Origin: Zingiber officinale
Taxonomy: Eukaryota > Streptophyta > Magnoliopsida > Zingiberales > Zingiberaceae
Length of the DNA: 64,000 bases
Assembly: GCF_018446385.1 (NCBI RefSeq)
Contig: NC_056000.1
Coordinates: 79,742,688-79,806,687, forward strand
Reading direction: 5' to 3'
Made by a program: the position numbers and the translations under genes. The notes below the pieces were generated by a model. The model did not search any database. It saw only the letters and a program-made list of their open reading frames with translations, and was not told where the DNA came from. Below are positions 5,952 through 61,400 of this stretch, piece by piece; position 1 is the first letter of the stretch, and every line of letters starts with the position of its first letter.

Positions 5952-6313
5952 CTGAATTGTAAATTGGAGGAGTTGAGGCATATGTTTTGTATGAAGTACA
6001 TAAATAGGTTTGTAAGAAAAACAATTGTTAAAAGTGATGTTTCTGTTATATACGTTTATGGAGTATTTAGTTTGTGTTACAGTTTTATGGTAGGTATGAG
6101 AAGTGTAAACCATCACCTACAAGGTAGAAATAATACATCACACCATATCTCCATTGTGTCAAATAAAAATGCGATACATTTCAATTCAACAGGAAGTGGT
6201 TCGTAATTTCAAAGTCACGTAAATATGTAGTGAAATATAGATGTGTTAAAACTCGCACAAAGGGATTGTAGTAATCCTTGCAAAATAAGATAGGACAGCA
6301 ATTCTCGGTCATT
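5952..6313. other. non-coding interval
   Basis: About 360 bases between the transposase fragment and the first palindromic-repeat unit. No gene, tandem repeat or recognisable terminal motif is visible. A small open frame at 5,964-6,206 has no family features. This may be the 3' flank of the mudrA-like gene. Confidence 0.4.
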
Positions 6314-12445: not shown

Positions 12446-14357
12446 GGGCCTGATATCGCATTATTTTATTTAAAATTTAATCGACTCGATTTATGTGTAA
12501 GACTATTTATTAATATTTTGAAATAATACTCTTTAATATCAGGCCCCACGTTGGGCCTGATATGCACTCATATCAGGCCCACGTTGGGCCTGATATCCAA
12601 GCATATCAGGCCCAACGGAGGCTGATTGTATTTGAATTTTCTCCCAGCACCTATAGATATTTAAATAATGATTTGGCAGTAGATTTGGAGTCCTTGAAAC
12701 TCCAGAATACCACTAGAACTGAAATGGGTCCAATCAGAGGTGTCTAGGTCCATCAGTGGGTTTTGACCAAAACCCACTGATAGCCCTCCCCTACTTGGAT
12801 TTACATGAAATCAAGTCCCCTGTGAAGGTCTTGGTGGGGAGATGGTATATATGGTGTCAAACATAATTTATACACCATGGATTAGAAGGTATGGCTCCGT
12901 GCCAATTGCCACTTATTCCACTTATGACCATGCTATAGACTTGAACCCTATGGTAGCACCTTCTAATTTTATTTTATTTTTTTATTTTTTCATAAGGAGC
13001 ATGGTAGCACATTTTGAGTTTATGGAAAGGGGGAGATAGTATAAATTTATAAGAAAGGATACCATACCAAGGCCACTTTGGGCCTGATATGGTCTCATAT
13101 CAGGCCCACGTTGGGCCTGATATCCAAGCATATCAGGCCCAACGGAGGCTGATTGTATTTTAATTTTCTCCCAACACCTATAGATATTTAAATAATGATT
13201 TGGCAGCAGATTTGGAGTCCTTGAAACTCCAGAATACTACTAGAACTGAAATGGGTCCAATTAGAGGTGTCTAGGTCCATCAGTGGGTTTTGACCAAAAC
13301 CCACTAATGGCCCTCCCCTACTTGGATTTACATGAAATCAAGTCCCCTGTGAAGGTCTTGGTGGGGAGATGGTATATATGGTGTCAAACATAATTTATAT
13401 ACCATGGATTAGGAAGTATGGCTCCGTGTCAGTTGCCATTTATTTTTTTATAAGGAGCGTGGTAGCACATTTTGAGTTTATAGAAAGAGGGAGATAGTAT
13501 AAATTTATAAGAAAGGATACCATACCGGCTACTTTGGGCCTGATATGGTCTAATATCAGGCCCACGTTGGGCCTGATATGCACTCATATCAGGCCCACGT
13601 TGGGCCTGATATCCAAGCATATCAGGCCCAACGGAGGCTGATTGTATTTTAATTTTCTCGCAACACCTATAGATATTTAAATAATGATTTGCCAGCAGAT
13701 TTGGAGTCCTTGCAACTCCAGAATACCACTAGAACTGAAATGGGTCCAATCAGAGGTGTCTAGGTCCATCAGTGGGTTTTGACCAAAACCCACTGATGGC
13801 CCTCCCCTACTTGGATTTACATGAAATCAAGTCCCCTGTGAAGGTCCTGGTGGGGAGATGGTATATATGGTGTCAAACATAATTTATACACCATGGATTA
13901 GAAGGTATGGCTCTGTGCCAATTGTCACTTATTCCACTTATGGCCATGCTATAGACTTAAACCCTATGGTAGCACCTTCTAATTTTATTTTATTTTTTTA
14001 TTTTTTCATAAGGAGCATGGTAGCACATTTTGAGTTTATAGAAAGGGGAAGATAGTATAAATTTATAAGAAAGGATACCAGACCAAGGCTACTTTGGGCC
14101 TGATATGCACTCATATCAGGCCCATGTTGGGCCTGATATTCAAGCATATCAGGCCCAACGGAGGCTGATTGTATTTTAATTTTCTCCCAGCACCTATAGA
14201 TATTCAAATAATGATTTGGCAGCAGATTTGGAGTCCTTGAAACTCCAGAATACTACTAGAACTGAAATGGGTCCAATCAGAGGTGTCTAGGTCGATCAGT
14301 GGGTTTTGACCAAAACCCACTTATGACCCTCCCCTACTTGGATTTACATGAAATCAA
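12446..14357 (-). repeat. right palindromic-repeat array, part 1
   Basis: The same unit as in 6,314-8,760 in reverse orientation, with the GTGTCAAACATAATTTATA landmark near 12,857, 13,382 and 13,876. Units are of B and B' type; B' includes an extra GGCCATGCTATAG-like segment. The array stops at 14,357 where an LTR element inserted and resumes at 21,372. Confidence 0.9.
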
Positions 14358-15772
14358 TGTTGGGACCGAAAAGTAGCTAGAGGGGTGAATAGCTCGTCGT
14401 TGGCTCGTTGCTCGGCGTTGCTTGTTTCTTCAAAGATGCGCAGCGGAAAATACAGAAACAAACCATACAACGCTAACAAGGTTGGTTTACTTGGTATCCA
14501 CCTCACAAGAGGTGACTAGTCCAAGGATCCACACCTACACACACACCCTCCACTAATAAAACTCTCCTTTATGGTAATTACCAAGGGCGGAGAAGCCCTA
14601 CAAGACTCAATACAAGAAGAAAGGGAAAGGTAATGAAATACAAGCTTACAAGCTTACAATGAGAGCAAAAACCCTAACCCTAGTTTCTTCTTCTTGCTTT
14701 GATCCGCCTCTTGACTTGGAAGAACCTCCAAGAGCCTTCAAGAACTGGCGATCTCGAGCTTGAGAAGAGCTGTGGAGAAGCTGGTGAAGATCTGAAATGA
14801 ATCGGTGAAGAGATTACCGCAGCCAACGCACGCCTGCAGCTCAAATACGACGCAACGGTCGGATCCCGATCGATTCGAAAACTCCCAATCGATCGGGGAG
14901 GCTTTGGATCGATCCACGGATCGATCCAGAGCGCCTTTGTGCTCTGGAGAAAATGCCTGGATCGATCCACGGATCGATCCAGCGTTTATCACGCGAACCA
15001 GCAGCGTCCCAATCGATCGCCTGATCGATTGGGACCTCTGGATCGATCCACGGATCGATCCACGGATTAATCCAGAGGCTCTCTGTTCGCTGGGAAAGGC
15101 CTGGATCGATCCACTGATCGATCCAGCTCTTGGTTTTTGCCCAAAACCAAGTCCCAAGCCTCTCAATCCAACATTCGGTCAACCTTGACCTATTGGTATA
15201 TCATGCCTAGCATCTGGTCACTCCCTTGACCTGCCAGGACTCCCCACCAAGTGTCCGGTCAATCCCTTTGACCCACTTGGACTTTTCTCTTCGTGCCAAG
15301 TATCCAGTCAATCCCTTTGACCTACTTGGACTCTCACCAAATGTCTGGTCAACCTTGACCCATCTGGATTTCTCTTGTCTGGCTTCACTCACCAGGACTT
15401 TTCCCAATTGCCTAGCTTCACTCACTAGGTCTTTCACCTAGCTTCACTCACCAGGATTTTCTTTCTGCCTAGCTTCACTCACTAGGTCTTTCACCTGGCT
15501 TCACTCACCAGGATTTTCTTCCTGCCTAGCTTCACTCACTAGGTCTTTCACCTGGCTTCACTCACCAGGATTTTCCTTCTGCCTAGCTTCACTCACTAGG
15601 TCTTTCACTTTGCCTAACATCCCAGTTAGGACTTCCCAGTCAAGTATCCGGTCATCCTTGACCTACTTGACTCTTCTTCAATCAACCTTGCATTGTCAAA
15701 CATCGAAACCCAAACCAAGACTCAAGCTTGGTCAACTAGGTCAACCTTGACCTGAGGGATGTTGCATCAACA
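14358..15772 (-). repeat. 3' LTR of the TR-GAG element
   Basis: Downstream LTR in element orientation (1,415 bp). Three structured blocks are visible: ATCGATC/GATCGAT hairpins at 14,870-15,130; GGTC/GACC bulged hairpins at 15,168-15,367 and 15,638-15,672; and CCTRG/CYAGG hairpins at 15,374-15,610. Confidence 0.92.
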
Positions 15773-18096: not shown

Positions 18097-19833
18097 CTAT
18101 GGGATAGAGAAAATGCTCCTAGGAACCCAAAACCAATTGGTGCTTCTTGGATGCTCTAGGTATTCACTAGAGATAACTTCCCTAGATACCTTCCTAGTGA
18201 CCTTGTTTGGTTTCTTAGAAGTCTTGGTCACATTTTCTAGGTCAACTCTAAGGATAGCCTCCCTTGTGGCCTTGTTAGTGACTTTCTTAGACTTCTTAGA
18301 AGTCTTAGTCACTTTGGTTGCAAAGATACTTCTAGGGATATCTTCCCTTGTATCCTTGACTTGACCTCTAGACTTAGGGTTAGTTCCATAACTATATGGA
18401 ACCTTATGGTACGAAATTTCATCCTTCTTAGCCTTAGGTTTGTATCCCAAACCTCTATGGTCATTGGATGACTTTGATACTCCTAGGCCTAGATTTTTAC
18501 CCTTAGACCCTTGTGTCATATTTGTGATTTTTCTAAGGGTCTTCTCTAATTTATCAAGTCTTGACCTCAAGACTTGATTTTCCTTCCATAATCCCTCAAC
18601 CATAGATTTTTCACTAAAATCATGATTTTTCTTCTTCTTAGGTACATACCTAGAATCCTTAGGGTTCTTACCTAAGTTTCTATCTACCTTTCTAACCCTA
18701 GATTGAGAGGTTTTGGCATGATAAGCTACATGATTTTTCTTAACACTATCATGCTTCCTATTTTCATGGTAAATAGCATTAAAATGATATAAATTTGACC
18801 TAGCATGCTTTTTACCATTTTGCAAGGAAATAGGCTCAATAAAAGATACCTTCTTTTTTACCTTGGAGGCTCCCCCTTGAGTTGAGCTTCCTCCATGAGC
18901 CTTGACCACCTTCTTCCCATTAGGGCATTGACTTCGGTAATGCCCCTTTTGATTGCAAGAGAAGCACACAATGTGCTCCTTGCTCTTCTTTGTTCCGGGG
19001 ATGGTCTCCTTGGGCTTCGCCTTGCCCTTTTGTGTCACTTGACCCTTCTTCTTGGCCAAGTTGGGACACTTGCTCTTGTAGTGCCCACTTTCCCTACACT
19101 CAAAACATATTATATGATTTTTATTTTTAATTGAAACATTTATACCTTCTTGTGTAGGGATGGCACTTGCTCCTCCATTTGATATTTCTTGAATTTTGGA
19201 GATGGCACCATCTTCTTCTTCTTCACTTGACCCGGATGTGGAGGCCTCTTCTTGCTTCGGGTTCATTGATCTACACTCCCCCTCAATCCTAGAGGTGGAG
19301 GCTTCATCATCTTGTACATGGAACAAGGAGTATGCTCCCTCCTTGTTCTCTTCATTGCACTCCCTCGAAGATGAAGCTTCTTCTTGGACTTCTTCTTCGG
19401 AGGTTGAGCATCTCTCAACCTCGGAGTCCTCCTCTTGGTCTTGCTCCAAAGAGTCACCCTCTCTGGATTCTTCTTGCTCTTGTACAGTGGAGGGGATCTC
19501 TTCATGAAGCTTGGCCAATTTACTCCACAATTCCTTTGCATCTTCAAATTTTCCAATTTTGCAAAGGATGGTGCTTGGCAATAGATTGACCAAAAGCTTG
19601 GTCACTTTGTCATTGGCCTCGCACCTTTGAACTTGCTCTTGGCTCCACTTGCTCCTCTTGAGAACTTTGCCCTTTGAGTTTGTTGGAGTCTTGAAGCCTT
19701 CCATAAGAGCAAACCATTGCTCTATCTCCATCATAAGAAAATTTTCGATTCTTGATTTCCAAGAATCGAAGCTCGTGGAAGTGTATGGAGGAGCCACCCT
19801 TGTGTCAAATCCAAGTCCATCTTGGAATTGCAT
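18097..19833 (-). CDS. Gag polyprotein of the TR-GAG element (578 aa, two zinc knuckles)
   Basis: The single open frame of the young element. Residues about 70-112 carry a conserved gag segment (VTKLLVNLLPSTILC, ELWSKLAKLHEE) also seen in the remnant at 38,332-38,805. Residues about 115-230 are very acidic (Glu/Ser-rich). Two CCHC knuckles follow: CFECRESGHYKSKC at about 243-256 and CFSCNQKGHYRSQC at about 290-303. The C-terminal half is Lys-rich and basic. Gag packages the RNA and forms virus-like particles in the cytoplasm; zinc knuckles bind RNA. No protease follows. The frame is open about 25 codons upstream of the chosen ATG but has no earlier ATG. It lies 120 bp after the PBS and is presumably driven by the LTR at 19,968-21,371. 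Confidence 0.85.
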   Translation of the reverse strand: MQFQDGLGFDTRVAPPYTSTSFDSWKSRIENFLMMEIEQWFALMEGFKTPTNSKGKVLKRSKWSQEQVQRCEANDKVTKLLVNLLPSTILCKIGKFEDAKELWSKLAKLHEEIPSTVQEQEESREGDSLEQDQEEDSEVERCSTSEEEVQEEASSSRECNEENKEGAYSLFHVQDDEASTSRIEGECRSMNPKQEEASTSGSSEEEEDGAISKIQEISNGGASAIPTQEGINVSIKNKNHIICFECRESGHYKSKCPNLAKKKGQVTQKGKAKPKETIPGTKKSKEHIVCFSCNQKGHYRSQCPNGKKVVKAHGGSSTQGGASKVKKKVSFIEPISLQNGKKHARSNLYHFNAIYHENRKHDSVKKNHVAYHAKTSQSRVRKVDRNLGKNPKDSRYVPKKKKNHDFSEKSMVEGLWKENQVLRSRLDKLEKTLRKITNMTQGSKGKNLGLGVSKSSNDHRGLGYKPKAKKDEISYHKVPYSYGTNPKSRGQVKDTREDIPRSIFATKVTKTSKKSKKVTNKATREAILRVDLENVTKTSKKPNKVTRKVSREVISSEYLEHPRSTNWFWVPRSIFSIP

Positions 19834-19967: not shown

Positions 19968-21371
19968 TGTTGGGACCGAAAAGTAGCTAGAGGGGGTGAA
20001 TAGCTCGTCGTTGGCTCGTTGCTCGGCGTTGCTTGTTTCTTCAAAGATGCGCAGCGGAAAATATAGAAACAAACCACACAACGCTAACAAGGTTGGTTTA
20101 CTTGGTATCCACCTCACAAGAGGTGACTAGTCCAAGGATCCACACCTACACACACACCCTCCACTAATAAAACTCTCCTTTATGGTAACTACCAAGGGCG
20201 GAGAAGCCCTACAAGACTCAATACAAGAAGAAAGGGAAAGGTAATGAAATACAAGCTTACAAGCTTACAATGAGAGCAAAAACCCTAACCCTAGTTTCTT
20301 CTTCTTGTTTTGATCCGCCTCTTGACTTGGAAGAACCTCCAAGAGCCTTCAAGAACTGGTGATCTCGAGCTTGAGAAGAGCTGTGGAGAAGCTGGTGAAG
20401 ATCTAAAATGAATCGGTGAAGAGATTACCGCAGCCAACGCACGCCTGCAGCTCAAATACGACGCAACGGTCGGATCCCGATCGATTCGAAAACTCCCAAT
20501 CGATCGGGGAGGCTTTGGATCGATCCACGGATCGATCCAGAGCGCCTCTGTGCTCTGGAGAAAATGCCTAGATCGATCCACGGATCGATCCAGCGCTTAT
20601 CGCGCGAACCAGTAGCGTCCCAATCGATCGGCTGATCGATTGGGACCTCTGGATCAATCCACGGATCAATCCAGAGGCTCTCTGTTCGCTGGGAAAGGCC
20701 TGGATCGATCCACTGATCGATCCAGCTCTTGGTTTTTGCCCAAAACCAAGTCCCAAGCCTCTCAATCCAACATTCGGTCAACCTTGACCTATTGGTATAT
20801 CATGCCTAGCATCTGGTCACTCCCTTGACCTGCCAGGACTCCCCACCAAGTGTCCGGTCAATCCCTTTGACCCACTTGGACTTTTCTCTTCGTGCCAAGT
20901 ATCCGGTCAATCCCTTTGACCTACTTGGACTCTCACCAAATGTCTGGTCAACCTTGACCCATCTGGATTTCTCTTGTCTGGCTTCACTCACCAGGACTTT
21001 TCCCAATTGCCTAACTTCACTCACTAGGTCTTTCACCTGGCTTCACTCACCAGGATTTTCTTTCTGCCTAGCTTCACTCACTAGGTCTTTCACCTGGCTT
21101 CACTCACCAGGATTTTCTTCCTGCCTAGCTTCACTCACTAGGTCTTTCACCTGGCTTCACTCACCAGGATTTTCCTTCTGCCTAGCTTCACTCACTAGGT
21201 CTTTCACTTTGCCTAACATCCCAGTTAGGACTTCCCAGTCAAGTATCCGGTCATCCTTGACCTACTTGACTCTTCTTCAATCAACCTTGCATTGTCAAAC
21301 ATCGAAACTCAAACCAAGACTCAAGCTTGGTCAACCAGGTCAACCTTGACCTGAGGGATGTTGCACCAACA
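19968..21371 (-). repeat. 5' LTR of the TR-GAG element
   Basis: Upstream LTR in element orientation (1,404 bp) and nearly identical to the other LTR. Bulged GGTC/GACC hairpins are at 20,767-20,795, 20,805-20,837, 20,846-20,879, 20,895-20,928, 20,936-20,966 and 21,237-21,271. ATCGATC hairpins occupy 20,480-20,730 and CCTRG/CYAGG hairpins 20,978-21,200. The long peptides read here (WIDPWIDP-type) come from the repeats. Confidence 0.92.
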
Positions 21372-23545
21372 ATCAAGTCCCCTGTGAAGGTCTTGGTGGG
21401 GAGATGGTATATATAGTGTCAAACATAATTTATACACCATAGATTAGGAAGTATGGCTCCGTGCCAGTTGTCATTTATTTTTTCATAAAGAGCATGGTAG
21501 CACATTTTGAGTTTATAGAAAGGGGGAGATAGTATAAATTTATAAGAAAGGATATCATACCAAGGCCACTTTAGGCCTGATATGGTCTCATATCAGGCCC
21601 ACGTTGGGCCTTATATGCACTCATATCAGGCCCACGTTGGGCCTGATATCCAAGCATACAGGCCCAACGGAGGCTGATTATATTTTAATTTTTTTTCCCA
21701 GCACCTATAGATATTTAAATAATGATTTGCCAGTAGATTTGGAGTCCTTGCAACTCCAGAATACCACTAGAACTGAAATGGGTCCAATCAGAGGTGTCTA
21801 GGTCCATCAGTGGGTTTTGACCAAAACCCACTGATGGCCCTCCCCTACTTGGATTTACATGAAATCAAGTCCCCTGTGAAGGTCTTGGTGGGGAGATGGT
21901 ATATATGGTGTTAAACATAATTTATACACCATGGATTAGAAGGTATGGCTCCGTGCCAATTGCCACTTATTTCACTTATGGCCATGCTATAGACTTAAAC
22001 CCTATGGTAGCACCTTCTAATTTTATTTTTTTTTAATTTTTTCATAAGGAGCATGGTAGCACATTTTGAGTTTATAGAAAGTGGGAGATAGTATAAATTT
22101 ATAAGAAAGGATACCATACCAAGGCCACGTTGGGCCTGATATGGTCTCATATCAGGCCCACGTTAGGCCTGATATGCACTCATATCAGGCTCACGTTGGG
22201 CCTGATATCCAAGCATATCAGGCCCAACGGAGGCTGATTGTATTTTAATTTTCTTCCAGCACCTATAGATATTTAAATAATGATTTGGCAACAGATTTGG
22301 AATCCTTGAAACTCCAGAATACCACTAGAACTGAAATGAGTCCAATCAGAGGTGTCTAGGTCCATCAGTGGGTTTTGACCAAAACCTACTGATGGTCCTC
22401 CCCTACTTGGATTTACATGAAATCAAGTCCCCTGTGAAGGTCTTGGTGGGGAGATGGTATATATGATGTCAAACATAATTTATACACCATGGATTAGGAA
22501 GTATGGCTCTGTGCCAGTTGTCATTTATTTTTTCATAAGGAGCATGGTAGCACATTTTGAGTTTATAGAAAGGGGGAGATAGTATAAATTTATAATAAAG
22601 GATATCATACCAAGGCCACTTTGGGCCTTATATGGTCTCATATCAGGCCCACGTTGGGCCTGATATGCACTCATATCAGGCCCACGTTGGGCCTGATATC
22701 CAAGCATATCGGGCCCAACGGAGGCTGATTGTATTTTAATTTTTTTCCCAGCACCTATAGATATTTAAATAATGATTTGCCAGCAGATTTGGAGTCCTTG
22801 CAACTCTAGAATACCACTAGAACTGAAATGGGTCCAATCAGAGGTGTCTAGGTCCATCAGTGGGTTTTGACCAAAACCCACTGATGGCCCTCCCCTACTT
22901 GGATTTACATGAAATCAAGTCCCCTGTGAAGGTCTTGGTGGGGAGATGGTATATATGGTGTCAAACATAATTTATACACAATGAATTAGAAGGTATAGCT
23001 CCGTGCCAATTGGCACGGAACAGTGCACAGCTTTTCTTTTCTACCCTATGGAAGGTGATTTTTAAAATTGATCTTATTTTATTTTTTTGATCAGGCCCCT
23101 GTTAGAATGCTTGGAGTTTATATTAGGGGGAGATAGAATAATGCTTTATTAAATGATACTCATATCAAGCCCATGTTGGGCCTGATATGCCCTCATATTA
23201 GGCCCACGTTGGGCCTGATATCCAAGCATATCAGGCCCAACGAAGGCTGATTTTATATTATTTTTTCCCAGCACCTATAGATATTTAAATAATGATTTGC
23301 CAGTAGATTTGGAGTCCTTGCAACTCCAGAATACCATTATAGCTGAAATGGGTCCAATCAGAGGTGTCAAGGTCCATCAGTGGATTTTGACCAAAACCCA
23401 CTGATGGTCCTCCCCTACTTGGATCTACCTGAAATCATGTTCCCTGTGAAGTTCTAACTGGTAAGATGGTATATCTGGTGTCAAAACGTATTTATACCCC
23501 ATTTCTAATAGGGTATTGCTCCGTGGCAGTTGGCACGGAACCTAG
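21372..23545 (-). repeat. right palindromic-repeat array, part 2
   Basis: Continuation of the array split by the LTR element. Landmarks GTGTCAAACATAATTTATA lie near 21,417, 21,907, 22,467 and 22,959, with the outermost variant (GTGTCAAAACGTATTTATA) at 23,479. Reading inward from 23,505 the first unit is type A, then B and B' alternate. The outermost A unit is almost the reverse complement of 6,314-6,840. The last 40 bp contain GCTCCGTGGCAGTTGGCACGG. Confidence 0.9.
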
Positions 23546-36494: not shown

Positions 36495-36847
36495 CATCTA
36501 CGGTCTCAAGCAGACCCCTCGAGCATGGCATGCCACCTTATGTGCTTCCTTACTCTCACTAGGGTTTATTGAGTTCAGGTCAGATACGTCGCTCTTCCTC
36601 TTTCACTCTGCACAAATCATAGCATATCTCTTGGTTTATATGGATGACATCATCTTCACCAACAATTCTTCCTCTTTTATTGCATCTACAACTGCTCATC
36701 TAGGTACCTCCTTTCCTCTCAAGGATCTGGGCGAGCTACACTACTTCCTTGGTATTGAGGCTACTCGCACCACAACTGGTCTCTTCCTATGCCAATCTAA
36801 ATATATTGATGACATTCTCTCTCGAAAAAACATGCATCAGTATAAAC
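36495..36847 (+). pseudogene. copia pol, part 2: RT core with YMDD
   Basis: Resumes IYGLKQTPRAWHA directly after the solo LTR and carries the catalytic YMDDI at 36,638-36,652, then FPLKDLGELHYFLGIE. It breaks off at NMHQYK where the next element inserted at TAAAC (36,843-36,847). This short stretch has no stops. Confidence 0.88.
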
Positions 36848-37891
36848 TATTGGTGCGGTTAGCACTAACGATCTAACTCAGGTTTTGATGAATGACAAAT
36901 TAAGTTAAGTTAGGTTTGTCGTTGTCTAACACTCTGATCGAGTATGCAGACAAAGTTCAGACAGGTCGACGGGCTGACCGGATGTCTGGCACGAAGCCCA
37001 GCTAGGTCAACAGGCCGACCGGATAGCTGGCATGAAGTCCAAACGGGTCGACGGGCTGACCGGTCGTTTGGCACGAAGTCCAGCTAGGTCGACGGGCTAA
37101 CCGATAGCTGGAATGAAGTCCAGACGAATCGAAGGGTTGACCGGATGTCTGGCAGGTAAGTAAAGGTAAGTCACTGGAGGGGAGTGACTGTGAGGACGCA
37201 TTCCCGGGAAGGGAACTTAGGCGTTGATCCGACTTAGAACCATTTCGGGACTCTAAGTCGAGATCTTGACTAGATTCCGGTCTTGGAGAGACGGAATCTA
37301 ATTAATACTCTTGTTGTTAAATTATAAACTGTGCTAACACTTTGTTTTGCAGGATATACATTGCCCCGGACTAACCTTGTCTTGCAAGAGAAGGAGTTTC
37401 TGGAGAAAGGTGGTCCAGGTGCCCGGAGGCAAGTTTTATCTCCATCGCGGCGTCGACACATGGAGCTCGCTGGTTGGGTCGGCTACGTCACACCAGGGTG
37501 CCCCGAAGGGCTGCGGGTGCCTCGAGCATCCTATAAAAGAAGGGTCAAGGGTGGAGCTTCAAAAAACAACTCTGGATTCAATCTCTGGTGCTCCTGCGAC
37601 GCTGCGAAGCTCTTTCGACGACCTGCGATTCAAGTGTTCTTTCTTATTATTGTCAGTATTATCTTTTAATAGTTCTTGTACTTGATATTGTAATTCTATT
37701 TACGAACTATTAGTGATTGCCCAACGAAAGCACTCAACGAGTGCAGACTTTGGAGTAGGAGTCGACAAAGGCTTCGAACCAAGTAAAATTGGTTTGTGTT
37801 AGCATTGCTTTCTATTTCCGCTGTGTATTCTCGATAGTTTTTTTTAATCGATATTCACCCCCCCCCTCTATCGAACATCTACGATCCAACA
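36848..37891 (+). repeat. 5' LTR of the non-autonomous element
   Basis: Contains five bulged GGTC/GACC hairpins at 36,958-36,988, 36,998-37,030, 37,039-37,071, 37,080-37,111 and 37,120-37,152. Overlapping ~112-codon frames at 37,331-37,685 also occur in the other LTR because the LTRs are near-identical. A CTATAAAAG TATA-like motif at about 37,530 may set the transcript start. Confidence 0.9.
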
Positions 37892-37893
37892 AG

Positions 37894-37905
37894 TGGTATC
37901 AGAGC
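37894..37905 (+). other. primer-binding site
   Basis: TGGTATCAGAGC lies two bases after the LTR end (CCAACA-AG-TGGTATCAGAGC), as in the TR-GAG element. Confidence 0.92.
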
Positions 37906-38331
37906 GGGTACCGCTCTGAATTGGTGCAACTACCAATCAAGCAAGGGGGGTTCTTTTTAAAAGAAAAATAGATATTGTTTGTCTTTAAAATAAAACCTTA
38001 CACCTTTCATTTTTTCCCTCCAAAACTATTTTTGAAAAATACATCGCCGTCTTTTCACCATTGCTTAGTCTTGACAAAATATTACATTTTCAAAATTTTG
38101 AAATAATATTTTTAAATTAATATTTTTTTCGAAATTAGTGCAATACTATATTCTTTCTCCAGCACTACTAATCCAAGACCAAGTCTTGGTATTTTGTCTC
38201 TGTTTCCTTGTGTGGAAGACCAATGTCTCTTCAAGAAGGACAGAACCCCCACGAACCACTACCATACGATCAAGATTTCAACTACTGGAAGCGATTAATG
38301 AAATGCTTCTTAGAAAATAGATTTTGATAAT

Positions 38332-38805
38332 GTGCTAATATTGAGAAAACCTTCTCAGGACTCGGAACTGAACAAAAATGTAAGTAAAATTATTTGCCGT
38401 GTTTTACCTAACAATGTTTTATACAGACTAGAAAAGTACAAGAATGCATATGAGCTTTGGACCCAGTTGATCAAACTTCACGAGGAATCGATGGAGCTCG
38501 AGGATCAAGTAAAAATTGAATCCAAACTTGAGTCAGATCCAACAGAAAAGCTTACTGAACTAGGGGTTGCGCTCAAGGTTAGTAATATTTACCAAAATAC
38601 CTCTGCTAATAGTAGTTTAAAGAATATGCATGTTAATTTGGATATTTCTGAAAATATATGTGAAAATAGTGTAGCTGACAATACTTACAAAAATACCCCT
38701 AGGATATTTTCTGATAAAACAAATCTAATTAATTTAGAAAATTCAGAAAATCTGAAAATAATTAATAACCCTAAAGAAAAAATTCAATTAATCATTTCAA
38801 TATAA
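38332..38805 (+). pseudogene. gag remnant related to the TR-GAG Gag
   Basis: The 157-codon frame has VLPNNVLYRLEKYKNAYELW followed by TQLIKLHEES, matching residues about 70-112 of the 578-aa Gag at 18,097-19,833 (LLPSTILCKIGKFEDAKELW). The usual N-terminal part is missing or out of frame, and no zinc knuckle follows; instead it runs into Asn/Lys-rich low-complexity sequence. This links the two elements as relatives. It is too short to act as a normal Gag. Confidence 0.7.
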
Positions 38806-41800
38806 AAGACAAAGAAAAAATAAGGATAAAATCAAACACTTTGATAAAATCAAAATTAAATCTAACAAACTTAAAATTAAATGTTAAAGATAAACTTTTA
38901 AAGAAATATGATTCAAACAATTTAATTAATTCAAATTTAAAAATTAATAAAAACTTAAACTTTAAAAATAAGCTATTAAAGAAAAATAATTCAATTAACC
39001 TAATAAAATTGAAATTGAATGGAAATTTAAATATTAAATACACTATTTTAAAGAAAGATAATTTGACCAATTTAATTAATTCAAAATTAAAAACTTAAAT
39101 TTAAATTACAAATTAAACATTAAAATTTAACTAAAACCAACTGTAATTATACAAAAATCTTAAAAGGAAAGTCAATAATTTAGGGGGAGACTCCAGAATA
39201 GCTGGCACCTCCGAAACTAACCTATTCGAAAAGATAACCCAAACAAATCTACCCAGCCGGGTATTAGGACTAGTTAAAAATGGACAAATTTTAACTTGAC
39301 CTATGGTACCGGTGAAGTTTTGGATGATAGTACGTTAGGGAAGCTTAGTCTATGCATGTGTAGGAAGATATGTCTTCGACCTAGTGCATTTGGCTAAGTG
39401 GAACTAGCCGAAGCTACCCCTTACGGATCCCAACCAGTTAGACCAAGGTTTTGTATTAAGTTCAGTGGATAGGACTATTTGGAAAACCTCGAAAGCATGT
39501 TTACTCTAACGATGTCCATGTGACTCATATAGCCCAGAAGTTTATCAAAAGAATACCTATTTGTTGAGCCCAAAGCTAAACCTGAATCTAACACAAAGCT
39601 AAACCAAACCCTATAATTGAATCAAATTCATCTCACAAAAATATAGGATTCCCTGATTTAAAATTTAGATCGGGTGAGATGACTAAGGATCAAAATTAAA
39701 TTTTGAATTAAAATTAAATTTAAATTAAGATTAAAATAAAATCTCAAAATTTAAAAATTTATTTTAATCTTAAAAATTTATTTTAAAATTATTTTAACTC
39801 CAAAATTATCTTAAAAATTATTTTAACCCAAAAAAATTTTAAAAAATTATTTTAACTTAAAAATTATCTTAAAAATTATTTTTTAACTTAAAAATTATTT
39901 TAAAAACTTTTAAAACTCATTTTAAAAATTATTTTAAAAACTTTTAAAACTCATTTTAAAACTTTTAAAACTCATTTTAAAAATTATTTAAAAATTATTT
40001 TAAGAACTTTTAAAAATCATTTTTAAAATTATTTTAAAAACATTTAAAAATCATTTTAAAAACTTTTAAAAGTCATTTTAAGAATTCTTTTAAAAATTCT
40101 TTTAAAAATCATTTTAAAAAAAATTCTTTTAAAAACTTTTAAAATCATTTTAAAAAATTCTTTTAAAAATTATTTAAAAATTTTTCAAGATCATTTTAAA
40201 AAAATTCTTTTAAAATTTATTTTAAAAACTTTTAAAAATTGTTCAAAATCTTTTTAAAAAAATTCTTTTAAAAATTATTTTAAAAACTTTTAAAAATAAT
40301 TTTAAAAATTCTTTTAAAAATTATTTTAAAAACTTTTCAAAATCATTAAAAAAAACTTTAAAATTAAATTTAAAACTTAAGTTAAAACTTAACATTAAAA
40401 TATTAAAGTTAATTTAAGTTTAAGACTTAAAATTTAAACTTAATTTAAAATTTACAATTAAAATTAAACTTAAATCATCTTCAAAAATTATATTAAAAAT
40501 CCTTTTTAACAAAAAAAAAATATTTTTAACTTAAATTACTTTTTTTAAAAAAATATATATTTTAATTTTTTTTAAAAAAAAACATTTCAAGTAAACTTAA
40601 AGTTAAATTAAATAAAATTAAATAATTAAATTCAAATTACAATATGTTAAACTAAACCTTAATGATGTTATTAACAAATAATTAAAACTTGATTAACTTA
40701 AGATTATAGACTTAATTAAATACTTAATAAGTGAATAATTGAAGTAAGAACTTCAAAAATTAACTTTAACTTATACTAAAGAGTTAATTAATTCTTAACC
40801 TTAATTTAACTCAATAAATCTTTATTTTAATGTTAATCAAAATCTTAATTCACTATAATTAAATCTTAATTTATCATTATTAATGATTGATTAAAATTGA
40901 ACCTTAACTATGTTTAATAACTTTAATAAATTTAACTTCGAATTAATGCTAACTTTAAACTAAGTTAATCCTACTTAAAAGGAGGTAAATGAATAGTTAA
41001 AATTATAACTAGCACTTTCATTAAATCAACTCAATCAATTAATACGAAATTTAAATTATTTTAATAAGTATTAAATTATTGAATCAAGTAAAATTTAATC
41101 GATAAATTATTGATAATGATTAATTGTTATTGAATTAATAACAAGTTATCTTATTTAACCTTAAACTAAAGTTTAAGGACCTGAATCTAAAATTAATTAA
41201 TTTTAGAATAATTGATTAATTAAACTTAAATAAATAATTATACCAAGGATACAGCGATAATTATGTAAATAATATAAGTGTTACTAAATCCCCTAGAACA
41301 CTTAGGTAGAAAAATGTGTTAGGGCTTTGAAATTTAACACACCCAAATCTTAGCATTATATTAAGGGGGAGTAATAAAATAAAGAGAATTAATAGATTAA
41401 AGGAGTATCAAATTCAAGAGGAGGTTTATTTTTTTAATTATCTCCTTAAGTGTTATTTTTTCTCTTTAAAATCTCTTTAGAAAATTCTACCTCAAGTTAT
41501 TTTAAAAAAAAATACTTTGAAAATCTTATATTAAATATTCTTATCAAATATTTTCAAAAGTATTATTTTAATAATGTCAGGTTCAGGGGGAGCAATAATT
41601 ATTTTCACATATACTTTTTTAAAAAATATTTTTGAAATTAGGTTTTAGAAAATATTCTTCTAAAAATGTTTTAGAAATGTGTTTATGAAACCTAACCTTT
41701 GTAAAACTAAGTTTTATGTTAAATTTTTTTAACTTGGTTTTGAAAATTGTATGTTATAAACTTGGTTTGAAACTGGTTTTGAAAATCGAATGTTACAAAC

Positions 41801-42445
41801 TTAGCTTTGAAATTATGATTTTTTAAACTTAATGTTGAAAATTAATTTAAGAAAATAGAAACCTAGGTTTGCAAATTAGATTTCACAAACTTAACTTTGA
41901 AAAAATAGATTTTGAATATTGAATTTTACCTGGTTTTTGAAAATTTTACTTTTGTAAAATTATCTTTACAGAATTTATGTTTGAAAAATATTTCAAATTC
42001 AAGTTCATTTTGGAACATATAAACTTATGTTTGGAATTTTGAATTCTTCTTAAACTTTGCTAAATTAGTTATTTTTCTAACTTAGTCATTTTTTTCAAAA
42101 CTTAACTATTTTGAAAAAGTTATTAAAAATTACTCTTTCTAAATTATCTTTCTTATAACTTAGCTATTTTGAAAAAGATAAGAAATATTTTTTAAAGCAA
42201 ATTTTCTAACTCCCCTGAGTCGATCTAATTTCTGTTTGCATTCTTTTTGCAATGTTTTTGTATTTATGATTATTTGATCCGTGTTTATGTTTGATGAATG
42301 TCAAAGGGGGAGGGTTATGTGGTTAAGTTAGTGCAACAAAATATAAAATTTAAAATCTAACTTAAAACCCTATAAATGCTTATTTTTACTTGCATATTTT
42401 TTTACTAACTTAACCAGGTTGTTATTCCATCAAAAAATGGGAGAT
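38806..42445 (+). other. AT-rich interior of the non-autonomous element
   Basis: About 3.6 kb dominated by A/T. 39,690-40,370 is a degenerate tandem repeat of ~20-25 bp units around TTTTAAAA (ATTTTAAAAATTATTTTAAAA-like). Open frames such as 38,841-39,098 are Asn/Lys/Leu low complexity. No pol motif is seen. Confidence 0.8.
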
Positions 42446-43491
42446 TATTGGTGCGGTTAGCACTAACGGTCTAACTCAGGTTTTGATGAATGATAAATTA
42501 GGTTAAGTTAGGTTTGTCGTTGTCTAACACTCTGATCGAGTATGCAGACAAAGTTCAGACAGGTCGACGGGCTGACCGGATGTCTGGCACGAAGCCCAGC
42601 TAGGTCAACAGGCCGACCGGATAGCTGGCATGAAGTCCAAACGGGTCGACGGGATGATCGGTCGTTTGGCACGAAGTCCAGCTAGGTCGACGGGCTAACC
42701 GATAGCTGGAATGAAGTCCAGACGGATCGAAGGGTTGACCGGATATCTGGCAGGTAAGTAAAGGTAAGTCACTGGAGGGGAGTGACTGTGAGGACGCGTT
42801 CCCGGGAAGGGAACTTAAGCGCCGATCCGACTTAAAACCATTTCGGGACTCTAAGTCGAGATCTTGACTAGATTCCGGTCTTGGAGAGACGGAATCTAAT
42901 TAATACTCTTGTTGTCAAATTATAAACTGTGCTAACACTTTGTTTTGCAGGATATACATTGCCCCGGACTAACCTTGTCTTGCAAGAGAAGGAGTTTCTG
43001 GAGAAAGGTAGTCCGGGTGCCCGGAGGCAAGTTTTATCTCCATCGCGGCGTCGACACGTGGAGCTCGCTGGTTGGGTCGGCTACGTCACACCAGGGTGCC
43101 CCGAAGGGCTGCGGGTGCCTCGAGCATCCTATAAAAGAAGGGTCAAGGGTGGAGCTTCAAAAAACAACTCTGGATTCAATCTCTGGTGCTCCTGCGACGC
43201 TGCGAAGCTCTTTCGACGACCTGCGATTCAAGTGTTCTTTCTTATTATTGTCAGTATTATCTTTTAATAGTTCTTGTACTTGATATTGTAATTCGATTTA
43301 CGAACTATTAGTGATTGCCCAACAAAAGCACTCAACGAGTGCGGACCTTGGAGTAGGAGTTGACAAAGGCTCCGAACCAAGTAAAATTGGTCTGTGTTAG
43401 CATTGCTTTCTATTTCTGCTGCGTATTCTCGATAGGTTTTTTTAATCGATATTCACCCTCCCCCCCTCTATCGAACGTCTACGATCCAACA
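42446..43491 (+). repeat. 3' LTR of the non-autonomous element
   Basis: Near-identical to 36,848-37,891; the five bulged hairpins recur at about 42,556-42,750. It ends GATCCAACA followed by TAAAC. Confidence 0.9.
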
Positions 43492-43496
43492 TAAAC

Positions 43497-44242
43497 CACT
43501 CAACACTCCCATTTCTCGAGGTTCCTCTCTATCTCAACACGATGGAGACCTACTTCCCGACCCTCATATATATTAGAGCATTGTTGGTGTCATACAGTAC
43601 TTGGCACTCACTCATCCTGAACTGGCATTTACTGTCAATCGAGCCTGCCAATTTATGCATAAACCCACAACGACTCACTAGATCACGGTCAAACGAATTC
43701 TCCGATATATTCGTCACACCCCTCGTCATGGCCTAATGTTGTGCCTCGCAACTTCTCTCACTTTGACAGCATACTCAGATGTTGATTGGGCTAGTTGTCC
43801 CGATGATCGTCGGTCCACCACTACTACTGTATATTTCTTACTGACAACGTCATCTCTTGGAATTCAAAGAAATAACAAGTTGTTGTCAACTCCAGTACTG
43901 AGTCCGAATATCGGGCACTAGCTCATGCTACTGATGAACTCTGTTGGCTTCAATCTTTATTGGAAGAACTCTGAGTGTCTATGCTATCTCCTCCGATTCT
44001 TTGGTGTGACAACATTGGCGCAACTTTCCTTGCTGCCAATCCCATCTTTTACGCTCATACAAAACATATTGACATTGATTTTCACTTTGTTCATAGACGT
44101 GTTGCCCGCAAGACTCTCATCATCGAGTATATCTCCACTCAAGATCAACTATCTGACATTCTCACGAAGGACCTCTCTTCTCATCGATTTGCTCTTTTAC
44201 ACGACTCACGGTGTGTGCTACACCGCTTCGTTTGCAGGAGAA
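43497..44242 (+). pseudogene. copia pol, part 3: RNase H and C-terminus
   Basis: Continues the copia pol after the nested element. YSDVDWASCPDDRRST is the RNase H start, followed by ISWNSKK, STESEYRALAHATDELCW, then PPILWCDNIGATFLAANP and KHIDIDFHFVHRRVARKTL, the standard copia C-terminus. In-frame stops: TAG at about 43,680 where relatives have Trp, TAA at about 43,881 and TGA at about 43,970. The 3' LTR starts at 44,243. Confidence 0.85.
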
Positions 44243-45208: not shown

Positions 45209-48200
45209 TCAACCACTCTCTTCGGCTTCAATTGTTGCAGATGAAGGATCCAGGACAGGAAAATGACGAGGAAGAGTGAGGAGAGGCTCACTATTGCGAT
45301 GACCCTGATGTGCTTGACCCCGTGCGTAACCTAATGCTCTAGCAACTGGAACAGCAACAGCATTGCCCACTTGAATGTATCTGAAACAAGAATCAAACTG
45401 AGTTACGATGGAGTTCAACTTAAAAGGATCGGGCAATTGGCTGATGATATTGTGTTGTATTTAAGAATTCTAAATTAGGTAAGTAGAACCAAGAAGCTGA
45501 GTTTTAATATCTACTTCTCATTTTATACCCTCTTTACCAACCACCAAGCACTACTACAACATTAAAGCACAAATAAGAGCAATGAGCAAGCAATATCTTA
45601 GTATCTAAAAATCTTATGAAAACCCCTATGAGAATATAAACGCTGAAAGGTGGAATTTTAACCTCTTAATTTCTCCATCTCTTATAACAGATATCACCAT
45701 CATCCAATCAAACAGGGAATAACATTACACATACAGAAGAATTTTTTTTTTTTTGAAATGTATAAAAATTAAACAAACATTTATTTGATGGCATTCCTAC
45801 TTCAAAAGAGAGGGAACGAATTAAACATTCAAAAAATTTATATATAAAAGTTAAAACAAATATCTTTATTTTATGGTCTTCAATAGGGTCAAAATAGAGG
45901 AAAGGAAGAAAAAGAAAACAATCATTTCCCATGTCTAATATATAAAAATTAAAACAAATATATTTATTTTGTGGTCTTCAATAGAGACAAAATAGAGGAA
46001 AGGAAAAAAGAAAAACAATCATTTCCCATGTCTACTTCGGTAGAGGAATTAAAAAGGTAAGAAACAATGGAACAATCTGAGTATTTATACCCCTCTTTTA
46101 ATTCAGTCCAAATCTACACTGAAAAGGTATAAAACAATGGGAAATTATCAAAAAAGACTAATTTTAAAACTGCCTGTATGGAATGAAAAAATCAACGGGT
46201 TAAAAAGTTGAAATTAATTTACAAAAACTAAGTAATATCAACAAAATAATCTTTACAAAAGTGCTCATTTTACGAAGTACCACATCAAAATAATTGAGGA
46301 TGAGGACTATGTTAATGACACATTGACACAGGGAAGGAAAACTATAACAGGAGTTGGTTCTACCTTTCTTTTATAGACCCTCGGAGTTGATAGTAAGCTG
46401 GGAAGCCTTGTAGCCTGGCATTCTCACGAATTGAGAGTACTCTATCTTGCCCCGGGTGCAAAATTACCTATCAACATACAAATCATTACAATGATTAACA
46501 GCTAAAATACCTTATATACTGTAGTTCATCAATTTAATGTTGTACCTGGTTGTGAGCTCAGCTCTTGTTACAACAGTGGGAACTGTTTCATCCCACCACA
46601 GCCGTCCAAAAGGCTTATAAAAAAAAAATATTATAAACTAAATATTCTAGCAGATATGGTACAAGATAAGAAAAAATGATGTTGTAGTGTACTTCAGGGA
46701 TTTTCCTTTGATAAAGGACATTGCATAATCAGGAACCTGCAGCAAAGGATTGTTTCAGATGAACTGAGATTACACCTAAAGCTAGCAATCAACACCTCAT
46801 TAAGTACCAGTGGTTTCCCCGATGGCAAGTAAACTCTCTCGACTTCTGGATCCCCCTCAACTATATTATCATTACCAACTCTAACTCCTGGCAAATCCCT
46901 GAAGTTTGCACCCTACAAAGACAACCAAATTTTGAATTGAGTCTGAATTCAGGACAATATTCCCTCACAGAATGGAAAAGCAAGAACAACTAGGGGTGGG
47001 GAGACCAAGCAAACCTTTTTCTTTGGTATTGCACAAACTTGCTGATAATCATCCTCATTTAATTGAAATGGCCTGGGATCAAAAGGTGGATATTTTGCAA
47101 TAGGCCTCTCCACAATAGACCCAGAAGCTAAAGCTTCTGCACATCAAAGCACAGTCAACAGAAAATCGTAAAAACAATAGGACGCTGTAGAAATGTTGCT
47201 TGTGATGCAAACTAGGAACATAACTACAAGATTTTAAAATTTATTATGGGAAGATCTTCTCTTTACACGAATAAGCTTTTTAAGAAATAGAAAGTTGAAA
47301 ATAGTTTATTCTATAGTATGAAAAAATTTGGCGTGTTCTAATTTAGTAGGATTTCGTAGAATTATCGTATTTCCCAATTAACTATACTTGCCTTTTAATT
47401 AGTTAGACTGAGGTCTATAAAAGAAAGTTGTGTTGTTTCAATTTATCAACTTATGGCACTAGCAATTAATTACTAATTTGGAAATTTACGTGGTAGAAAT
47501 CTTATAGTAGCCAAAACAATATATATATATAAGACAGCTTACCAATCCTTGAAAGACGAATGAACTTCTGGAACTCTGTGATTGGTGGTCTACCATAGGG
47601 CATTTCATCCCTATCTTCATAATTACCAATCTAATAAGTAGCAACTACATATTAATATCTTCAATAATCCATGAGTGATGTAAAATTGATTAAATCGTAT
47701 AGAACCAAATGAGAATATAAATACCACAGGGAGGTCAGATATGGCATTCTCCAATAGTAGTTTCTTCTCGAGTTGAGGGTGTTGATCTTCATTATATGCA
47801 ACAATGTTTTGCTATAATGAGCAAGACATTAGTAGGAACTAAGGCAAGACATAAGGATTAAGCTTTAGTTACCATCAGACCAGTATAAGTCAGGTTCAAG
47901 TCCATTTTTATCTCATTTTTGTCAAATGTAACAGTAAAATAATATACATGTTCAAAACAAGATCCTATGCCAAGTTAGAATAAAATATTGAATATAGCAG
48001 ATAGCAAACTTGTTAAAATCAGTTAGTATTAATCAAGTCTGGTTTAACTAGAATTACAAACTTTATTTGGGAATACAAGACCATAATGTTACTAATTGAT
48101 ATTCATAAAAACTAATCAATATAAGAGGCCAATGAGAATGGAATATATAGTGAGTACCTCAAACTCATTAGGTGTACCTCCACGAACCACCACATCATGA

Positions 48201-58462: not shown

Positions 58463-61400
58463 TTAAAATAAATATTTTTATTTTATGGTCTTCAATTGAG
58501 TCAAAATAGAGGAAAGGAAGAAAAAGAAAACAATAGTTTCCATGTCTACTTCAGTAGAGGAATTAAAAAGGTGAGAAATATCTCTCTTTTAATTCAGTCC
58601 AAATTTACCCTGAAAAGGTATAAAATAATAGGATATTATCAAAAAAGAGTAATTTTAAAACTGCCTGTCTTGAATGAAAAAAAAAAACAAAAAGTCAAAA
58701 AGTTGAAATTAATTTAAAAAAACTAAGTAATATCAACAAAATAATTTTACTAAAAATGCTCATTTTATGAAGTACCACAGCAAACTATGTTAGTGACACA
58801 TCAACATAAGAAAGAAAACTATAATAGGAGTTGGTTCTACCTTTCTTTTATAGACCCTCGGAGTTGATAGTAATCTGGGAAGCCTTGTAGCCTGGCATTC
58901 TCACGAATTGAGAGTACTCTATCTTGCTCTGGGTGCAAAATTACCTATCAACATACAAATCATTACAATGATTAACAACTAAAAAACCTTATGTCTTGTA
59001 GTTCATCAATTTAATGTTGTACCTGGTTGTGAGGCTCAGCTCTTGTTACAACAGTGGGAACCGTTTCATCCCACCACAGCCGTCCAAAAGGCCTATAAAA
59101 AAAATTAATATAAACTAAATATTGTAGCAGATATGGTACAAGATAAGAAAAAATGATGTTGTAGTGTACTTCGGGGATTTTCCTTTGATAAAGGACATTG
59201 CATAATCAGGAACCTGCAGCAAAGAATTGTTTCAGATGAGCTGAGATTACACCTATAGCTAGCAATCAATGCCTCATTAAGTACCAGTGGTTTCCCAGAT
59301 GGCAAGTAAACTCTCTCGACTTCTGGATCCCACTCAACTATATTATCATTACCAACTCTAACTCCTGGCAAATCCCTGAAGTTTGCACCCTACAAAGACA
59401 ACCAAATTTTGAATTGAGTCTGAATTCAGAACAATATTCCCTCACAGAATCGAAAAGCAAGAACTAAGAGTGGGGGGACCAAGCAAACCTTTTTCTTTGG
59501 TATTGCACAAACTCGCTGATAATCATCCTCATTTAATTGCAAAGGCCTGTGATCAAAAAGTGGATATTTTGCAATAGGCCTCTCCACAATAGACCCAGAA
59601 GCTAAAGCTTCTGCACATCAAACAGAAAACTATTATGAAAGCACGGTCAACAGAAAATCCTAAAAACAATAGGACACTGTAGAAATGTTGCTTGTGATGC
59701 AAACTAGGAACATTCCTACAGGATTTTAAAATTTATTATGGGAAAATCTTCTCTTTACACGAATAAGCTTTTTAAGAAATAGAAAGTTGAAAATAGTTTA
59801 TTCTAGAGTATGAAAAAATTTGGCATGTTCTAATTTAGTAGGATTTCGTAGAATTATCGTATTTCCCAATTAACTATCTTTGCCTTTAAATCAGTTAGAG
59901 TGAGATCTACAAAAGAAAGTTGTGTTGTTTCAATTTATCAATTTATGGCACTAGCAATCAATTACTTGTTCAAAAATTTACATGGTAGAAATTTTATAAT
60001 AGCCAAAACAAAATATATAGAGAGAGAAATAATATCCTGCACACCCTTAAGTGAGCAACTGTAGAGGACATCTGACGTGGGCAATGTTGTGGCAAATCTC
60101 ATCTTTTTCCTCTCTCATCTACTTGCAAGAAAATAAAATTCTCTTCTTTCCTTTGATTGTATTCAACAACCACTATAATATTGATTTTTAAAAACTAGCA
60201 CCACAATCTAAATACACCAATATTTAAGCTGTGTTGCTAGTTTCAAGCACCAAAGTGGTTCCATTTTTTAAAAAACAACACCATAGTAGTAATTGATGTA
60301 TTTAAGCTGTGATGTTTATTTTAAAATGCTACCACCGCAGTGATAGCTAGTGTATTTAAGCTGTGATGCTGGTGGGCCAAAGTGGTTGTTGCATGCAATT
60401 AAAGAAGATAAAACAAAGAATTTTATTTTATTGCATGCATATGAGAGATAAAAGAGATGAGATTTGTCACAACACCACATTAGATCACTCACATCGGAGG
60501 TCGCCCACAGTCACTCACCTAAGGAAGTGCAAGATATCATATATATATATATATATATATATAATGCAACATACCAATCCTTGAAAGACGAATGAACTTC
60601 TGGAACTCTGTGATTGGAGGTCTACCATAGGGCATTTCATCTCTATCTTCATAATTATTGATCTAATTCAAAGTAGGAATAGTACATATTAATAACTTCA
60701 ATAATCCATGAATTGTGTAAAATTGATTAAATCAAATGAGAATATAAATACCACAGGGAGGTCAGATATTGCATCCTCTAAGAGTAGTTTCTTCTCGAGT
60801 TGAGGATGTTGATCTTCATTATATGCAACAATGTTTTGCTATAAATGAGCAAGACATTAGTAGGAAATACAGCAAGACACAAAGATTAAGCTTTAGTTAC
60901 CATCAGACTAGCATAAGTCAGGTTCAAGTCCTAATTGATTTCATTTTAGTCAAATATAACTGTCAAATAATATGCATATTCAAACCAAGATCATATGCCA
61001 AGTTAGAATAGAATGTTGAATATAGCAAATAGCAAATTTGTTAAAATCAGTAACTATTAATCAAGTCTAGTTTAACTAATAAAATTACAAACTTTATTTG
61101 GGAATACACGACCATAATGTTACTAACTGATATTCATAAAAACTAATGGATATAAAAGGCTATTGAGAATGGAATACATAATCTGTACCTCAAACTCATT
61201 AGGTGTACCCCCACGAACCACCACATCATGAGTAGGTAATGGAAATTGAGGCAAAATCTGCAACAAAGAATGTTAGAACACACTAAACAAAAAACTCAAG
61301 AAATTTATGATATTGCACATGGAAAAAAGTGCAACCTCAGTTGGGCGAGCACCCCAAAGGAATGCTCGCATTCGAAATTGAGGCAAACCGTAGCATCCAG

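Follow-up and report, generated by a model that had tools for sequence, protein, structure and literature searches.

Nested, bulged hairpin arrays with covarying arms in the LTRs of two putative Sirevirus-type elements of Zingiber officinale

When the two arms of a repeated hairpin change together, it becomes directly testable whether the pairing itself is selected, and whether this happens in RNA or in DNA. The question is raised by a 64,000-nt stretch of the Zingiber officinale genome (the window, meaning the whole of the DNA analyzed here), in which two LTR elements, A and B, carry runs of bulged hairpins in their LTRs. A preliminary description of the window had taken these for a selected RNA structure and guessed at a signal for Gag binding, packaging or dimerization. 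The arrays are the best-alignable part between the two LTR families, and one pattern for the unit has more than 40,000 matches in this one genome.

Element A is on the plus strand and has a 5' LTR (TATTGG...CCAACA) at 36,848 to 37,891, a target duplication of TAAAC and a 3' LTR at 42,446 to 43,491 that is 97.2% identical to the 5' LTR. The hairpin units share a design in which an outer stem of about seven pairs encloses a GGTC/GACC inner stem with its loop, and 2 to 3 nucleotides 3' of the core are unpaired. Given as outer 5' arm, core, bulge and outer 3' arm, the units of the 5' LTR (all on the plus strand) are (T)CAGACA, GGTC..GACC, GGA and TGTCTG(G) in unit 1 (36,957 to 36,989); CCAGCTA, GGTC..GACC, GGA and TAGCTGG in unit 2 (36,998 to 37,030); CCAAACG, GGTC..GACC, GGT and CGTTTGG in unit 3 (37,039 to 37,071); CCAGCTA, GGTC..AACC, GA and TAGCTGG in unit 4 (37,080 to 37,111), where the bulge is 2 nt long; and CCAGACG, AATC..GACC, GGA and TGTCTGG in unit 5 (37,120 to 37,152), which has one G-U pair. 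The claim of five hairpins of one design stands insofar as all five are present in both LTRs (the matching units of the 3' LTR are at 42,555 to 42,750, plus strand), but the design was slightly idealized, as the inner stem is exactly GGTC/GACC in three of the five units of the 5' LTR and the cores of units 4 and 5 are imperfect. The outer stems of units 2 and 4 are identical, leaving four distinct stems among five units. A TATA box (CTATAAAA, 37,531 to 37,538, plus strand) lies 378 nt downstream of unit 5, which places the array of element A in U3. The internal region is strongly AT-rich (22% GC over 37,894 to 42,447), with A/T-rich near-repeats within 38,800 to 42,300. Its gag-like remnant is a 157-aa frame at 38,332 to 38,805 (plus strand) that matches the gag of element B at 43% over 44 aa, and no further gag or pol frame of at least 150 aa was found in 38,800 to 42,300.

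Element B is on the minus strand, with a 3' LTR (TGTTGATG...CCAACA) at 14,358 to 15,772, a target duplication of TTGAT, and a 5' LTR at 19,968 to 21,371 that is 97.7% identical to the 3' LTR. The six hairpins described earlier for this element are all present in the 5' LTR, five at 20,767 to 20,966 (cores at 20,959, 20,921, 20,872, 20,830 and 20,789) and a sixth (AGTCAAGTA/TACTTGACT) at 21,237 to 21,271 (core at 21,262). The 3' LTR has five at 15,168 to 15,367 (cores at 15,360, 15,322, 15,273, 15,231 and 15,190) and a sixth at 15,638 to 15,672 (core at 15,663), and the core is imperfect in one of these six. A 578-aa Gag frame at 18,097 to 19,833 (minus strand) contains two CCHC zinc knuckles, which exceed the Pfam cut-off, together with a Copia gag match that falls short of it; in a protein search with this Gag, none of 7,844 candidates matched at E 0.001. 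No pol was found among the frames of at least 150 aa in element B, and a Copia RT fragment had no match inside the element.

Several other repeats accompany element B. Its LTRs contain a 57-nt tandem repeat (15,352 to 15,682 and 20,951 to 21,281, minus strand) with short hairpins of a second class, CCTAG-TGAGTGAAG-CTAGG and CCTGG-TGAGTGAAG-CCAGG, the stems of which show double changes among related arrays. Farther downstream, B-type LTRs carry an array of GATCGATC/GATCGGTC palindromes (about 14,850 to 15,120 and 20,450 to 20,730 in the window, minus strand). The R-Y pair of 194 such palindromes in the sampled loci is A-T in 120, G-C in 65, A-C in 6 and G-T in 3, so that these palindromes covary too. 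Satellite-like repeats with a spacing of about 490 to 590 nt occupy 6,300 to 8,600, about 12,500 to 14,360, and 21,371 to 23,541, the first block being inverted relative to the other two, and element B appears to have inserted within this satellite-like array. Elsewhere in the window, direct repeats at 46,620 to 47,442 and 59,097 to 59,934, which are 12.5 kb apart and 94 to 96% alike, may be a duplication or the two LTRs of one long element.

The unit is abundant well above chance, because GGTCN6GACCGGA has 43,770 matches in the 3.09-Gb genome (21,746 + 22,024), against 327 (146 + 181) for a reversed, uncomplemented control pattern. Loci were sampled from the first listed matches on C1 (20 of 9 to 10 kb, 40 of about 1 kb, and 9 more) and, having been chosen for holding the pattern, are informative on the variation of the unit and not on its frequency. 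In 59 of the first 61 sources, window included, there were 364 hairpins with at least five of seven Watson-Crick outer pairs, and the 3 nt after the core were GGA in 240 and AGA in 75 of them. When the bulge is placed 3', hairpin and LTR-end signal have the same sense in 98 cases and opposite senses in 1, the other 265 of the 364 having no such signal in reach. The gag of element B was matched in 15 of the 20 long loci. Comparison of the two LTRs by blastn gave weak matches only, the best of them over the arrays (70 to 77%; best E 0.004, 72% over 57), and outside the arrays these LTRs can hardly be aligned.

The U3 region is missing from the 5' end of the RNA of an LTR element and present at its 3' end. 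Being upstream of the TATA box, the array of element A would be absent from the 5' leader and lie only near the 3' end of the RNA, which makes a packaging signal in the 5' leader unlikely. A TATA box downstream of the array is also found in the A-type LTR of one sampled locus (L027); among 14 B-type arrays, 12 have no TATA-like box between the array and the LTR-end signal, and the other two have one about 65 nt before that signal. Both window elements had been described as bearing gag and lacking pol. No pol was found in either, but the gag of element A is a remnant and the units also occur in a pol-bearing element. Locus L027 has a four-unit A-type array followed by the TATA box, the LTR-end signal and weak gag matches (24 to 40% identity). 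The adjoining locus, L069, has domains of RVT_2 (E 1.3e-73) and integrase; an A-type array follows the last of its pol frames at a distance of about 1.5 kb, and we take this array as the 3' LTR of a pol-bearing element. Because this pol-bearing relative, a single case, has the array, the array belongs to a wider lineage and not to gag-only elements. With the array of element A in U3 and matching units in a pol-bearing element, a Gag-binding or dimerization signal is not supported. The arrays at L027:6,572-6,735 and L069:5,640-5,740, taken as the 5' and 3' LTR of this element, have one stem pair in which both partners are different (CCAGCTA/TAGCTGG against CCAACTA/TAGTTGG), possibly through a compensatory change after insertion or in a chimeric element.

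That the arms covary in both LTR families, in one strand sense, was borne out by two alignments. The family A alignment has 22 rows, consisting of the 2 window LTRs and 20 of 38 other listed matches (40 of 6,581 candidates scored); the B-type alignment has 42 rows selected from 67, the 25 omitted ones including second LTRs and more divergent arrays. Related copies are not independent, so the following shuffle figures are not strict probabilities: in family A, 9 cells were changed on both sides of a pair against 4.1 after shuffling (5 of 500 shuffles reached 9), and in the B-type alignment 43 were, against 7.3 ± 2.3 (0 of 500). Slid registers gave 0 to 2 such cells in family A and 1 to 10 in B-type arrays. 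Counted by pair, both-side change was found at 10 of 44 pairs in the B-type alignment against 5.3 shuffled (1 of 500) and at 5 of 55 in family A against 2.9 (55 of 500 reached 5), which is weak. The number of pair types was not raised in either alignment (28 against 28.9 and 31 against 30.3). Arm shuffling on hairpins that had been picked for pairing (0.92 against 0.57) is selection-biased and is not used as proof. RNAalifold did give a consensus fold for the family A copies, but one that joins units 2 and 4, with a covariation term of only -0.92.

The same signal is seen on trees. With 60 arrays (another 2 of the 62 were left out for their divergence) and 45 pairs, drawn from five bulged slots and two short hairpins, 30 double changes from one Watson-Crick pair to another were counted in register, against 0 to 6 out of register. 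On a larger tree of 67 arrays (2 of 69 dropped), some double changes come three per slot on one branch, more like replacement of a whole slot, and double changes at single pairs persist in slots s3, s4 and s5 and in the short hairpins t1 and t2. The feature is real, abundant and covarying, and covariation above shuffles and slid registers is clear in B-type arrays and weaker in family A.

Covariation could be produced by mutation, through fold-back copying of arms during reverse transcription together with unit duplication, and serve no selected function. The many double changes on one branch with no visible intermediate would fit such an origin, as would the slots in which three pairs changed on a single branch and a G-U preference that is not significant. 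We nevertheless consider it unlikely, given that outer stems change less on internal branches (1.06 per column) than loops (1.57) or spacers (1.98), and that the 3-nt bulge persists although arm copying might be expected to erase it. The ratio of internal to terminal change in slots s1 to s5 is 0.45 for the core, 0.66 for the outer stem, 0.79 for the bulge, 0.86 for the spacer and 1.23 for the loop; the core differs from the loop (p 0.0009) and the spacer (p 0.016), and the stem from the loop (p 0.014), and there is no difference of stem, bulge or loop from spacer (p 0.20, 0.88 and 0.16). Constraint is best supported for the core and moderately for the stems, and is not supported for the bulge. 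The lower internal-branch change in core and stems than in loops, relative to terminal branches, suggests that lineages which replicate are selected to keep their pairing. Many copies are probably in decay, and weak selection would then go unseen. Correction of the arms in the host genome after insertion is not favored by six LTR pairs, which were compared only at hairpins that are still well paired (30 listed, with 3 cross-slot cases and 1 antisense artifact set aside): 25 of 26 matched hairpins have identical stems and 1 has a single change, with none changed on both sides. The L027/L069 case points the other way, and some change after insertion is conceivable because the two arrays there differ on both sides of one pair.

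RNA pairing should tolerate G-U and not A-C, whereas strand-symmetric decay of DNA should lead to equal counts of the two. The ratio of G-U to A-C was 33:29 in all candidates (p 0.70), 25:26 in unique arm pairs, 66:48 on the 60-array tree (p 0.11) and 68:74 in the downstream GATCG palindromes (p 0.67). On the 67-array tree it was 45:35 on terminal branches, 10:11 on branches with two tips and 13:5 on those with at least three, and in family A it was 21:14 on terminal and 2:2 on internal branches. G-U leans ahead in some classes with no clear, significant preference over A-C; the G-U pairs that had been offered as an argument for RNA structure are thus weak evidence, and the counts do not establish selection at the RNA level. 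It is unlikely, in our judgment, that the array is a selected RNA structure near the 3' end of the element RNA with a part, for instance, in RNA export or stability, in Gag binding or in strand transfer. Such a structure would account for the covariation in family A and B-type arrays, for a bulge that keeps to one side of the hairpin when read in element sense (98 to 1 in the 99 hairpins, out of 364, that can be judged) and for the lead of G-U at 13:5 (branches with at least three tips) and 21:14 (family A, terminal), but the tested sets show no significant difference between G-U and A-C, and a pair in unit 3 of family A went from C-G to T-A by way of C-A and not G-U (C-A in the ancestor of eight copies, T-A in four). 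Folding of single strands does beat shuffled controls, but also on the antisense strand, where the excess over its own shuffles is as large or larger (z -2.3 sense and -4.6 antisense in A, -4.8 and -5.2 in B), and being positive on both strands it cannot tell them apart. In A, the best fold departs from a row of five hairpins, since pairing is also possible between units 2 and 4. The array of A is, moreover, upstream of the TATA box, and 36,800 to 43,500 contains no Rfam match at E 0.5 or better. Unlikely, too, is a wider proposal, that a nested, bulged RNA hairpin module in U3, compensatorily kept across otherwise unrelated Sirevirus LTRs, is a 3'-end RNA signal common to autonomous and gag-only members that lets the gag-only ones use the machinery of others. 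It is quite improbable that the array would face the host and serve mainly as a template for small RNAs derived from hairpins, a role proposed for the palindromes of maize Sireviruses; the accessible parts of the maize reports describe a small-RNA excess over palindromic LTR regions (PMC10760457, PMC5311732), but this would explain silencing and not why the element keeps the pairing.

The reading we prefer, with a probability of roughly 0.5, is that the array is a DNA-level cis-regulatory region of the element and that the pairing of its arms is under selection. Tandem nested inverted repeats in Sirevirus-type Copia LTRs would regulate transcription, and selection would keep the pairing of the two arms and not their exact letters. 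Recognition of their symmetry may involve folded-out arms, or else proteins that bind the two duplex halves; changes would be fixed while the element replicates and not after insertion. This cis-regulatory reading is supported because the array corresponds to the repeated motifs (RM) of Bousios et al. 2010 in its position, its palindromic form and its repetition, and because G-U is about as frequent as A-C, as expected for duplex symmetry and not for wobble pairing. It is weakened because a symmetric DNA site leaves a one-sided bulge unexplained, because neither outer stems (p 0.20) nor bulge (p 0.88) differ from spacers in the ratio of internal to terminal change, and because G-U leads A-C 13:5 on branches with at least three tips. 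It is weakened also by the lack of a TATA-like box before the LTR-end signal in 12 of 14 B-type arrays and by family A, where the pair count is weak and pair types are not raised. The ratio of observed to expected CpG is 1.03 in the array, 0.99 in the LTR and 0.58 in the internal region of element A (0.86, 0.64 and 0.27 in element B), and it speaks against the same reading that high CpG spans the whole LTR of A and not only the array. A reading of the core as a W-box (TTGACC) was rejected as the whole story: in some slots GGTC/GACC has become GATC/GATC and is still paired (at one pair in 5 of 42 rows), and the outer stems are not explained by any single motif.

Sirevirus features were taken as defined in the accessible part of PMC2829016. 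The junction of 5' LTR and PBS has the Sirevirus form, CA-AGTGG-TATCAGAGC, in both elements (AGTGG-TATCAGAGC is at 37,892 to 37,905, plus strand, in A). Element B also has a Sirevirus PPT at its terminal position (AGGGGGAG-AT-TGTTG); that of element A is a variant, AATGGGAG-AT-TATTGG, without AGGGGGAG, and the start of its LTR (TATTGG) is a variant as well. Copies of AGGGGGAG are multiple and cluster upstream of the 3' LTR, as in Sireviruses, in A (four, one of them more than 3 kb upstream) and in B (seven including the terminal one, two of them more than 3 kb upstream). An inverted repeat surrounds the junction of PPT and 3' LTR (81% over 32 columns in A, 94% over 17 in B), and the C-rich integrase signal TTCACCCC lies near the LTR 3' end in both. 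Judged by these sequence features, both elements possess most noncoding hallmarks of Sireviruses, and A would be classed as Sirevirus-type by features other than the PPT.

A TR-GAG is an LTR retrotransposon with LTRs and gag and without pol. Element B, with its LTRs, gag frame and no pol frame found, fits this type, whereas element A has a gag remnant only. The array of B differs from what would mark a TR-GAG in not being particular to gag-only elements, as the one pol-bearing relative with an array indicates.

The nearest known counterparts are the Sirevirus LTR palindrome arrays reported in 2010, for which the accessible part of the report gives no tested function; the repeated motifs there form clusters that lie upstream of the TATA box and within CpG islands, and CGGTC-GACCG motifs are included (PMC2829016). 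Like these RM (Bousios et al. 2010, PMC2829016), the units here are multicopy tandem LTR palindromes upstream of a TATA box, and the published motifs of Osr10 (CGGTCTGACCG), Osr8 (CGGTCAGACCG) and Vitis (CGGTCGACCG) share the GGTC-GACC core with them. The RM consensus, as far as that text extends, is a single palindrome of 10 to 20 nt, whereas here a variable outer stem encloses the core, a bulge lies on the 3' side, and the outer stems covary between units and between copies. The CGG-CCG signature of RM is not symmetric in these units either: published RM comprise at least eight palindromes with a CGG-CCG core, and the bulged units number five or six per window LTR, with CGG on one side only of GGTC/GACC. 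CGGTC..GACCG is held by 65 of the 194 downstream palindromes of B-type LTRs. In maize Sireviruses, LTR palindrome clusters have a strong predicted secondary structure (PMC10760457), and the LTR regions described in the accessible parts of the maize reports are, like those here, palindrome-rich, strongly structured by prediction and called fast evolving (PMC10760457, PMC5311732). The maize motif, CACCGGACNNNGTCCGGTG, is unlike the units here, and those parts of the two reports mention neither covarying outer stems nor a polar bulge. The preliminary description knew of no account of such a structure; palindromic motifs upstream of the TATA box are in fact known (PMC2829016, in the part accessible), but a literature search, which left most subscription journals out of reach, turned up no report of a covarying unit with two nested stems and a bulge, nor of a covarying stem that encloses a core or of a bulge with polarity. 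We regard the hairpins as a variant, nested and polar, of the palindrome array known from Sirevirus U3 regions.
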